DNA from: Polycladomyces abyssicola
GTDB lineage: Bacteria > Bacillota > Bacilli > Thermoactinomycetales > JIR-001
Length of the DNA: 64,000 bases
Assembly (NCBI RefSeq): GCF_018326425.1
Contig: NZ_AP024601.1
Coordinates: 2,964,001-3,028,000, forward strand
Direction: 5' to 3'
Below are positions 21,436 to 57,094 of this stretch, one piece after another (position 1 is the stretch's first letter; each line of letters starts with the position of its first letter). Below the pieces are notes generated by a model. That model was not told the DNA's origin. It saw nothing but the letters and a program-made list of their open reading frames with translations, and searched no databases. The position numbers and the translations under genes were made by a program.

Positions 21436-21579
21436 GAAGCGAATCCCCCTTTTCGCTTTATACATTATCTATTCCTTAAATATCCGAAAATTCCTTCCCT
21501 TTATTCATCATTTCTCAAAATGTACTTCACCTATTCTTAACAAATCAATGACATCAAAAAACGTCGAATCAAAACGAAA

Positions 21580-21603
21580 ACCCCTTCGCCGAAGCGAAGG
21601 GGT
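21580..21603 (-). terminator. Terminator of second csp gene
   Basis: Perfect 10-base arms ACCCCTTCGC closed by a TTCG loop on the minus strand, followed by TTTTCGTTTT. This is a very stable C(UUCG)G tetraloop terminator. Confidence 0.85.
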
Positions 21604-21642
21604 GAGTAGTCATCGGTTGTTCATCCAGTCAAGGAAAAACGA

Positions 21643-21843
21643 TTACCCGATTTTCGTGACGTTCGCAGCCTGTGGTCCACGCGGACCTTCCACGATGTCA
21701 AATTCCACAAACTGACCTTCATCCAGGGTTTTGAATCCATCTTCCTGGATGGCCGAGTAGTGAACGAATACGTCTTCGCCACCCTCGCGCTCAATGAAAC
21801 CATAACCCTTTTCCGCGTTGAACCACTTGACTTTGCCTTGCAT
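21643..21843 (-). CDS. csp: Cold-shock protein (CspB/CspD family)
   Basis: 66-aa OB-fold protein [18 protein letters not shown] with RNP motifs KGYGFIER and DVFVHYSA. It is closer in style to constitutive Bacillus CspD/CspB than the copy at 16211. The start at 21843 follows AAGGGAATG. It has its own promoter and a short leader with a small hairpin (ATGAGA/TCTCAT, 21878-21897), and lacks the long alternative-pairing leader of the other csp gene. Confidence 0.97.
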
Positions 21844-21908
21844 GAAAACACATTCCCTTCTTGATTTAAATACGCAAATGAGACGGGTAAATCTCATAAT
21901 GCTTTTTC

Positions 21909-21937
21909 ACTATATCATTGAGCCGCACCAAAGTCAA
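21909..21937 (-). promoter_or_regulatory. Promoter of second csp gene
   Basis: On the minus strand TTGACT (21932-21937), 17 bases, TATAGT (21909-21914); predicted start about 21902, giving a leader of roughly 59 nt. Confidence 0.75.
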
Positions 21938-22019
21938 GAATATTTCTCCAAACCGGTCAATGATCTCCTGAGGATTCACTTTTCCAGACTCGCTTCCCCC
22001 GCGACCTGCAGGGAAGCAG

Positions 22020-22140
22020 ATGATGGCCACTTCGACCCGTCAGCGGAGGACGCGGGCAATGTACGCTTTGCTTTGAGGAAATTGCCCGTGATTCCAACCC
22101 TGCGTTTCCTGCCCTTCGCTCAGCAGCGGCTTTGTAAGTC
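22020..22140 (-). repeat. Intergenic structured element, copy 1
   Basis: Read on the minus strand, beginning about 40 bases after the ABC ATPase stop, this stretch shares a conserved core with 43590-43690 (plus strand) and 56935-57060 (minus strand). The core is a hairpin with 7-base arms CGGGCAA and TTGCCCG (22053-22059 and 22082-22088). Its loop contains TCCTC, a mini-stem GC-AAA-GC, and GTACA. A second shared block upstream reads AGGAAACGCAGG. No reading frame is conserved among the copies. Confidence 0.65.
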
Positions 22141-22178
22141 GCTCGCCCGGAAAAACATTGCTCCCTCACATACACGCC

Positions 22179-22907
22179 CTAGAGAACTTTGCTCAAAAAG
22201 GCACGGGTCCGTTCGTGCTTCGGAGCATTGAACAACTCGTTCGGCGGCCCCTCTTCAACGATCACGCCCTGGTCCATAAACAACACACGGTCGGACACTT
22301 CGCGAGCAAATCCCATCTCGTGGGTGACGACGACCATGGTCATCCCTTCCTGGGCCAGTTGTTTCATGACCGCCAACACTTCGCCCACCATTTCGGGATC
22401 AAGGGCCGACGTGGGCTCGTCAAACAGCATCACCTTCGGATCCATCGCCAACGCACGGGCGATGGCGACGCGCTGTTGCTGTCCACCGGAGAGCTGTTCC
22501 GGATAAGCTTGGGCCTTGTCCGCCAAGCCCACCTTGTTCAACAGCTCCATCGCCTTGATTTCCGCTTTTTCTTTGGTCCAGCCCCTGACTTGGATCGGTG
22601 CCAGCGTGATGTTTTCGATCACACGCTTGTGGGGAAACAGGTTGAACTGCTGGAACACCATGCCCACTTCGGTTCGTACCTTGTTGATGTCCGTTTTGGG
22701 ATCGGTCAGATCATGCCCGTCCACCCACACCTTGCCGCCGGAGACGGGTTCCAAGAGATTGAGACAGCGCAAAAATGTGCTTTTCCCGGAACCGCTGGGA
22801 CCGATCACACAGACCACTTCTTTTTCTTGAATTTCGACGCTGATATCCTTCAAGACTTCCAATGTGCCGAATTGTTTGCGCAGATGTTCGACCCGGATCA
22901 TGGCCAT
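22179..22907 (-). CDS. Polar amino-acid ABC transporter, ATP-binding protein
   Basis: 242-aa GlnQ/ArtP-type ATPase. Walker [11 protein letters not shown]-loop [13 protein letters not shown], signature [15 protein letters not shown], Walker [15 protein letters not shown] and the H-loop VVTHEMGFA are all present. The ATG at 22907 follows GGAGGG; upstream in-frame codons are within the permease tail. It lies 4 bases after the permease gene and completes a three-gene importer with the permease and binding lipoprotein. The substrate is probably a polar amino acid; glutamine, arginine or cystine cannot be separated by eye. Confidence 0.95.
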
Positions 22908-22911
22908 CGGA

Positions 22912-23598
22912 TCATCCCTCCTGTCTGTCGGTACGGTAGCGGTTTTCCAGGAAAAAGACGATGCGCGAAAGAACATACGTCAAAATGAAATACAGGGCGG
23001 CTGACGCGATGTACGGGGCCCAGCGTTCAAACGTGTTTTTCGCCGTGGTGAAGGCGGCGTAGGTAATATCGTTGACCGCGATGATCGTCACCAGAGACGA
23101 ATCTTTGAGCAAGGCGATAAATTCGTTTCCCAGCGGAGGTAACATCCGTTTGAACGCCTGTGGAAGAATGACATGCCGCATGGCTTGTCCGTACGTCATA
23201 CCGAGCGAGCGGGCTGCTTCCATCTGCCCTTTTTCAATGGATTGAATGCCGCCGCGGAAAATTTCCGCGATATAGGCTCCGGCATTAAGCGACAAGGCCA
23301 CGAAACCGGACACGATCGCCTCGGGTGGTTTCACGCCCAGCAACTCTTCGCAAATGGTGGGAATCACAGCGAAATGAATAGCCAGGATTTGCAGCAGCAA
23401 TGGCGTGCCCCGAAAGATATCCACATATAACTGGGCCGGAATGATCAACCATCGACTGCGCGAAAGACGCATCAACCCCAAGATCAGACCGATGACCATC
23501 CCGACCAAAACAGCCACCGTTGTCAATTCGATGGTAGTCCAGAATCCGCGGATAAAGTAGTCTTTGTATTCTACCAGTACGGACCAATCGATTGGCAT
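22912..23598 (-). CDS. Polar amino-acid ABC transporter, permease
   Basis: 228-aa membrane protein with about five membrane segments and the HEAAT-type ATPase-contact loop ([23 protein letters not shown]). [10 protein letters not shown] is the N-terminal family signature. The start at 23598 follows GAGGTGG, downstream of the DnaA-box cluster. A single permease gene implies a homodimer. Confidence 0.94.
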
Positions 23599-38063: not shown

Positions 38064-38233
38064 GAAAAAATCCCCTTCTGCCAGAGCAGAAAGGGATCTT
38101 ATATATTATAAAATCGCCTCTCTCATCTGCCAGAACCGATGGGCTCTGCAGGAATTGGCACCATTTCCGCGTACATACCGCGGACGGTTGCCGGGTTTCA
38201 TCGGGCCAGTCCCTCCACCTCTCTTGATAAGAG
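38064..38233 (-). promoter_or_regulatory. SAM-I riboswitch (S-box) with terminator
   Basis: On the minus strand the aptamer starts CTCTTATCAAGAG, then has GAGGGACTGGCC, GATGAAACCCGGCAACC and GGTGCCAATTCC, all S-box consensus elements, and closes at GATGAGAG (38120-38127). An expression-platform terminator with 11-base arms and six T follows (38064-38098). Bound SAM favours termination and lowers metNIQ expression. Confidence 0.96.
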
Positions 38234-43534: not shown

Positions 43535-43589
43535 TTGGCTGACGGCGCCCCTTGGCGCTTCTGCTTCGGGCGTGTCTGGTCCATCCATA

Positions 43590-43690
43590 TCTCAGGCTCT
43601 ACTGAGCATCAGAACACCAGGAACGCCAATCCTATCGGGCAATTTCCTCTCAGCGAAGCATACTTTGCCCGCATTCTATTCTCCCTGTTG
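43590..43690 (+). repeat. Intergenic structured element, copy 3
   Basis: In the 3' region of the LCP gene, read on the plus strand. The hairpin arms CGGGCAA (43636-43642) and TTGCCCG (43665-43671) enclose TTTCCTC, the mini-stem GC-GAA-GC and ATACT. Upstream it shares CTGAGC and CAGGAACGC with copy 1. It lies about 100 bases after the stop codon and before a terminator. Confidence 0.65.
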
Positions 43691-53546: not shown

Positions 53547-53717
53547 AGTTGACAATTTTTTTGTATCCCTGTCAAGAAAATATCACACATTCCTTTGAAA
53601 TGACTGCAAGTATTCCGTAAGGGAGCAAATGCTTTCCGAATGTGGACAGATACTTACCAGACACGCCTTGGTCTCGGTGAAAACCGATTTCTGGCTTCCG
53701 CTGATCACGACGATGTG

Positions 53718-56934: not shown

Positions 56935-57060
56935 AAGACCTCAGTCCCGAGGAGTGCAGATCACGAGCAATGTACGTTTCGTTTGGAGGATTTGCCCGTG
57001 ATTCAATTCCGCGCTTCCCGATTCGATGTTCGGTCGGGCTTAGGTCTTGTCGCTCACTTG
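56935..57060 (-). repeat. Intergenic structured element, copy 2
   Basis: Read on the minus strand, about 90 bases after the malic enzyme stop. Arms TCACGGGCAA and TTGCTCGTGA (56961-57001) form a longer stem than in copies 1 and 3, with a G-U pair replacing a G-C pair. The loop holds TCCTCC, the mini-stem CG-AAA-CG (a compensatory swap relative to GC-AAA-GC) and GTACA. GTGAGCGAC at its 5' side matches GCGAGCGAC of copy 1. Confidence 0.65.
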
Positions 57061-57094
57061 GGAGCTTGGTTCAACTAAAAACTCCGTTTCCCCT

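Follow-up and report, generated by a model that had tools for sequence, protein, structure and literature searches.

A dispersed MITE-like element of Polycladomyces with a structured core that recurs between different ends across Bacilli

MITEs are usually viewed as shortened insertion sequences (IS) with an unimportant interior. The element described here, from Polycladomyces abyssicola, shares with the MITEs of the IS5 family a short length, the lack of an open reading frame, the inverted ends of an IS, numerous intergenic copies and an IS-like target; however, its interior cannot be read as a shortened IS, was found in none of the IS tested and is conserved more widely than any other part. 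The bcr1 repeats of the Bacillus cereus group, ERIC and BOX are likewise scattered through intergenic regions and predicted to fold as RNA, but are known from narrow host groups and with single end types. Conserved structured RNAs are likewise tied to mobile elements in the case of group II introns, TnpB/IscB guide RNAs and HEARO; in contrast to these, the element has no Rfam match and bears the ends of DDE transposons, and no reverse transcriptase or nuclease gene was seen to accompany it.

The best overall explanation, to which we assign a probability of about 0.75, is a MITE in Polycladomyces with a conserved module as its core, partly selected as RNA. Two components of this explanation are well supported: that the element would be, as judged from its sequence, a MITE in Polycladomyces, and that a conserved structured core absent from Rfam is found with differing ends across Bacilli. 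A search of the literature found no description of this element.

The window, i.e. the whole stretch of 64,000 nucleotides of the P. abyssicola JIR-001 genome that was analysed, contains three hairpins which, when read and folded, are located as described in the initial annotation, at 22087-22051 (minus strand), 43636-43671 (plus) and 56998-56962 (minus). For the arms, CGGGCAA and TTGCCCG are confirmed, with copy 3 reading TTGCTCG instead of the latter, as are TCCTC and RTAC in the loop; according to the ORF list the hairpins start 92, 102 and 97 nt after a stop codon in copies 1, 2 and 3, respectively. They are far beyond chance, a core-based pattern being found at 8 places of the genome against 0 for the reversed control; a chance hairpin is ruled out by this control together with the consensus matches and the cmsearch E-values. 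As for the mini-stem in the loop, the CG-AAA-CG variant had been placed in copy 2 and actually belongs to copy 3, copy 2 reading GC-GAA-GC, and its pairing, which had been taken for a shared feature, is inconsistent in the consensus. The shared hairpin unit is real, although it measures about 240 bp and not about 100 nt, the hairpin constituting its apical stem; similarly, all three copies are real, but a fourth, core-deleted one had been overlooked.

Copy 1, which is nearly complete, spans 21974..22179 on the minus strand and scores 140.9 bits (E 2e-40) in cmsearch with the model built from the family. Its structured core occupies 22160-21974, the 3' inverted repeat is lost, and its first base, 22179, begins the 5' inverted repeat GGGCGTGT, next to which there is a short deletion. 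Boundary analysis places the insertion site, CTAG, at 22179..22183 (minus). The stop codon TAG of the ABC ATPase gene (22179-22976, minus), located at 22181-22179, is the insertion site itself, composed of TA and the first G of the element; copy 1 thus exemplifies how insertion at CTAG can be harmless at a TAG stop, because the initial G of the element restores the codon. This copy has orthologues in two sister species, hence is retained in three species in all, and the orthologue in one of them (genome G002) shows independent indels. A match to the Rfam cspA thermoregulator (21575-22016, minus, 83.6 bits), which covers the csp gene, overlaps with its 5' part the last bases of copy 1 on the 3' side; the sequence preceding csp is thus made up in part by the element. 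Copy 2 (43568..43671, plus; 33.9 bits, E 1e-8 in cmsearch) is degenerate: its 5' inverted repeat, GGGCGTGTCTGGTC, is preserved at 43568 and its apical hairpin at 43636-43671, but the interior is eroded. Copy 3 (56951..57067, minus; 42.0 bits, E 5e-11 in cmsearch, also recovered as a BLAST cluster) has lost both ends; it is recognisable from about 57067, and its best-scoring core covers 57019-56951. The core-deleted copy 4 (53614..53667, plus) joins consensus positions 17-40 to 214-240 and keeps the 3' inverted repeat ACCAGACACGCC.

An alignment of the eight pattern matches in the genome shows that similarity extends well past the hairpin. Further copies, sought in the host genome (3,197,230 bp) by pattern, consensus and covariance model, are many: a 236-nt consensus yields at least 40 scored matches, and finds others in two further genera as well as in two sister species, while the covariance model yields at least 61 matches. 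A contiguous segment of 464 kb including the window holds 25 copies or fragments, of which 8 are close to complete and 13 partial, the remaining 4 having lost most or all of the core; extrapolation from this segment gives about 170 copies and fragments per genome, i.e. well over a hundred. One copy in G002 (L104, 332-513, minus) immediately precedes the gene for 6S RNA, and its P. abyssicola orthologue (L174) keeps only the ends.

Concerning mobility, whole Polycladomyces copies are bounded by the terminal inverted repeats GGGCGTGTCTGGT and ACCAGACACGCCC, with ends of 13 bp. The commonest flanks are CTA, CTG and TTA before the element and TAG, TAA and TGG after it, corresponding mostly to a (C/T)TA(G/A) target; as regards a target-site duplication, TA is intact on both flanks in only 7 of 36 copies, although CTA or TTA before and TAG or TAA after predominate. 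In the sister species G002, an IS of about 950 bp (L070, 1411-2361) has the ends of the element, lies between CTA and TAG, and contains ORFs matching DUF4096 and DDE_Tnp_1, which makes it IS5-type. Since ends and target are common to the element and this IS, they point to a MITE moved in trans. The element is found inserted mostly at (C/T)TA(G/A), is widely dispersed and decays once inserted; in the proposed mechanism, an IS5-type transposase would act in trans on its 13-bp ends. A DUF4096 search of the P. abyssicola genome returned no match, and an IS with these ends is absent from it as far as searched.

Evidence of insertion comes from genome G001, where a complete element is nested in another copy twice, with an identical junction. 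In these two composites (L046, 1380-1900 and 2690-3200), which are about 1.3 kb apart, the older copy is interrupted by a complete element at an identical position; they are probably a local duplication and may go back to one event. A search with the joined flanks of six copies across three Polycladomyces genomes gave no clean empty site; at most sites a sister species has the element too, sometimes eroded, and one has a deletion, thus the insertions are mostly old. Against the explanation as a whole count the rare agreement of the two flanks on TA, the lack of the IS in the host genome as far as searched, and the missing empty site. Other origins were considered and rejected. The TA target would fit a vehicle of IS630 type, but in the genome PF13358 is represented only by a fragment in a 91-aa frame, with no similar ends adjoining; a plasmid or phage repeat finds no BLAST match with either the Polycladomyces consensus or an f27 copy; and an internal deletion product of an IS is rejected because no core was found in the IS copies examined. 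The possibility that the repeats are IS remnants, which the initial annotation had itself raised against a novel element, is half borne out: the ends are IS ends, but the core is absent from every IS copy tested.

In the consensus fold the core, of about 185 nt, adopts one long branched hairpin, the element being one long imperfect palindrome. The covariation test gave a very strong signal. In a MAFFT alignment of 21 copies, the 52 pairs have a covariation score of 0.217 as compared with 0.161 +/- 0.007 for shuffled alignments, with no shuffle equal, and the score falls to 0.06-0.09 when partners are slid by 1-3 columns; across genera, in an alignment of 26 diverse matches that is fitted to the covariance model, the score is 0.600 versus 0.167, and double-changed cells number 322 versus 101. 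Whole helices of unrelated sequence are legible by eye, such as GCAAACACTTCC/GGAAGTGTTTGC in L122 and GCACCAAA/TTTGGTGC in L134. Across Bacilli, compensatory changes preserve the helices even though the sequences that form them are replaced, and the core is borne between different ends. As regards known RNA families, the element has no covariance-model match in Rfam 15, either for the window at gathering score or for 28 loci of many genera (E up to 10 and 5), so a family included in Rfam 15 is excluded.

It should be noted that pairing in a long imperfect palindrome might also be restored by template switching between the arms, in which case structural selection would not be needed and the covariation would be a by-product. 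The almost purely Watson-Crick character of the pairing agrees with such repair; nevertheless, we consider it very improbable, as copying of one arm from the other would erase the unpaired motifs AGCGGA and GGAGCGG, the side hairpin and the asymmetric bulge, all of which are conserved and distinct over families, and unrepaired mismatches accumulate in resident copies. Selection on the fold could, in turn, act on DNA: the core of the MITE would be an extruded or single-stranded hairpin bound by a protein during transposition or replication, with no role as RNA. Protein-recognised DNA hairpins are found in attC and REP, and the palindromic layout is compatible with this reading, as is the near-pure Watson-Crick pairing, G-U making up about 2% of well-paired lineage positions, which is low for an RNA. 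When minimum-energy folds are counted instead, G-U accounts for 8-9% of pairs, similar to the 8% of the SAM riboswitch in the window, an ordinary S-box leader (38120-38233, minus; 92.7 bits for Rfam RF00162). IS5-type DDE transposases, however, act on double-stranded ends, which argues against a hairpin DNA substrate, although IS1182-family elements are known to target hairpin DNA (PMC4923244). Further against it stand three modest strand-specific signals, all without correction for relatedness. Folding is better for the sense than for the antisense strand in 46 of the 67 Polycladomyces elements compared (P 0.003) and in 12 of 15 others (P 0.035); G-U, though rare overall, exceeds A-C among pair variants, by 9 to 1 at the subfamily level (variants in at least 12% of copies) and by 10 to 2 in lineage consensuses; and copies between tandem genes favour the sense orientation, with 36 sense to 18 antisense (P 0.02), a count made with codon-scored gene calls and dependent on the gene calling, cruder calls, wrong at copy 1, having given 27 to 23. 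Taken together, these signals suggest RNA rather than DNA alone as the selected form, a conclusion that we regard as moderately supported, and they leave a core selected purely as DNA unlikely.

Maintenance of each copy by the host, as a 3'-UTR stabiliser, a terminator-proximal element or an sRNA, is a different matter. In the window, each of the three hairpin copies follows a gene in sense orientation, as had been emphasised initially, and copy 1 is kept in three species; across the genus, however, this orientation amounts to a moderate bias and not to a rule. Of the 78 copies for which both neighbouring genes could be scored, 36 sense and 18 antisense ones are in tandem contexts, 14 lie between convergent and 10 between divergent genes; the antisense copies and those between divergent genes speak against maintenance by the host. 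Orthologous copies, moreover, show independent indels, as in copy 1, or have lost the core. Rare private stem changes in resident copies amount to 206 G-U and 186 A-C cells, a near equality that is expected without selection on the fixed copy. This neutral decay of resident copies implies that selection acts on propagating copies, or acted in the past, and not per site. Host maintenance is thus improbable and a 3'-UTR element unsupported, an sRNA being an unlikely though conceivable candidate and the mobile RNA-like repeat being the right one of the three options initially offered. Under the preferred reading of a MITE with a modular core, the core would be a module in its own right, with selection on its fold, at least partly as RNA, operating in propagating copies.

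The distribution of the core exceeds that of the Polycladomyces ends. Within the order, model R1, derived from the 21-copy alignment, has matches in 23 of 42 genomes; a second model, R2, matches 70 of 400 sampled Bacilli genomes, chiefly of family f27. An exact-pattern scan of contigs outside the own genus returned two true relatives, in Thermoflavimicrobium dichotomicum and Paenactinomyces guangxiensis, and three chance matches. Lineage-specific ends enclose the same core, CTAGAAGCGTTGTGA in G012 and G017, CAGGCGTGTTGATTAACCA in G021 and G023 and others elsewhere; in several genera the core is present with no clear ends recognised. In the f27 genomes G263, G311 and G231, the copies have ends such as CAGCGTGTAGACAAAG and CAGACTGAAGACAAAC and are flanked by two copies of a whole terminator hairpin. 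G231 contains 21 matches to PF13751 (IS1182-type), and several of its IS1182-type IS have the end CAGCCTGTAGACAAAG and whole terminators duplicated likewise; the loci L194, L199, L209, L210 and L211 of this genome hold IS1182-type elements between two whole copies of the terminator hairpin. An IS1182-type element, to judge from these ends and this target preference, is the likely vehicle in G231, G263 and G311, and this family is not the vehicle in Polycladomyces. The IS1182 family (IS1272/TnSha1) inserts into terminator hairpins (PMC4923244); for IS1272, partial deletion of the hairpin and no duplication of the target are reported (PMC4923244), in contrast to the duplication of the whole hairpin displayed by the copies and IS described here. 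The core was also sought in the IS loci tested, and none was found; this absence and the different ends indicate that the core is separable from its vehicle. The differing ends may have arisen through repeated capture of the core or through ends drifting with their transposases. At an f27 locus of G214 (L158, C1:103429-106618) three copies of the element lie head-to-tail with a unit of about 519 bp, and paired copies are present at other f27 loci.

The interior of the element is thus its most conserved part, is missing from the IS tested and is borne with the ends of at least two IS families, which makes testable the notion that a structured RNA (or DNA) module able to switch vehicles can be the foundation of a bacterial transposable element. 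Tentatively, and with odds somewhat short of even, the core could represent a new and ancient class of structured RNA, selfish or symbiotic, borne by unrelated transposases (IS5-type, IS1182-type and others) across Bacilli, its fold persisting through changes of ends and target, with the RNA, and not the transposon, as the lasting unit. Regulation of a neighbouring gene is probably not its role. Our guess, a doubtful one, is that the role is self-serving, either as a compact RNA domain that makes read-through transcripts tolerable to the host or as an aid to spread. For annotation, the family adds a high-copy structured element absent from Rfam in many Bacilli genomes, and it may account for many apparent 3'-UTR hairpins there.

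In a sample of the phylum, R2 matches, besides the own genome, 3 of 398 genomes, weakly. Three loci from other classes of the phylum, L166, L167 and L168 (in G616, G474 and G765), score 35-44 bits and are possibly distant relatives; their apical motif is AAC.TGTTTGA...GAGTTTTG.
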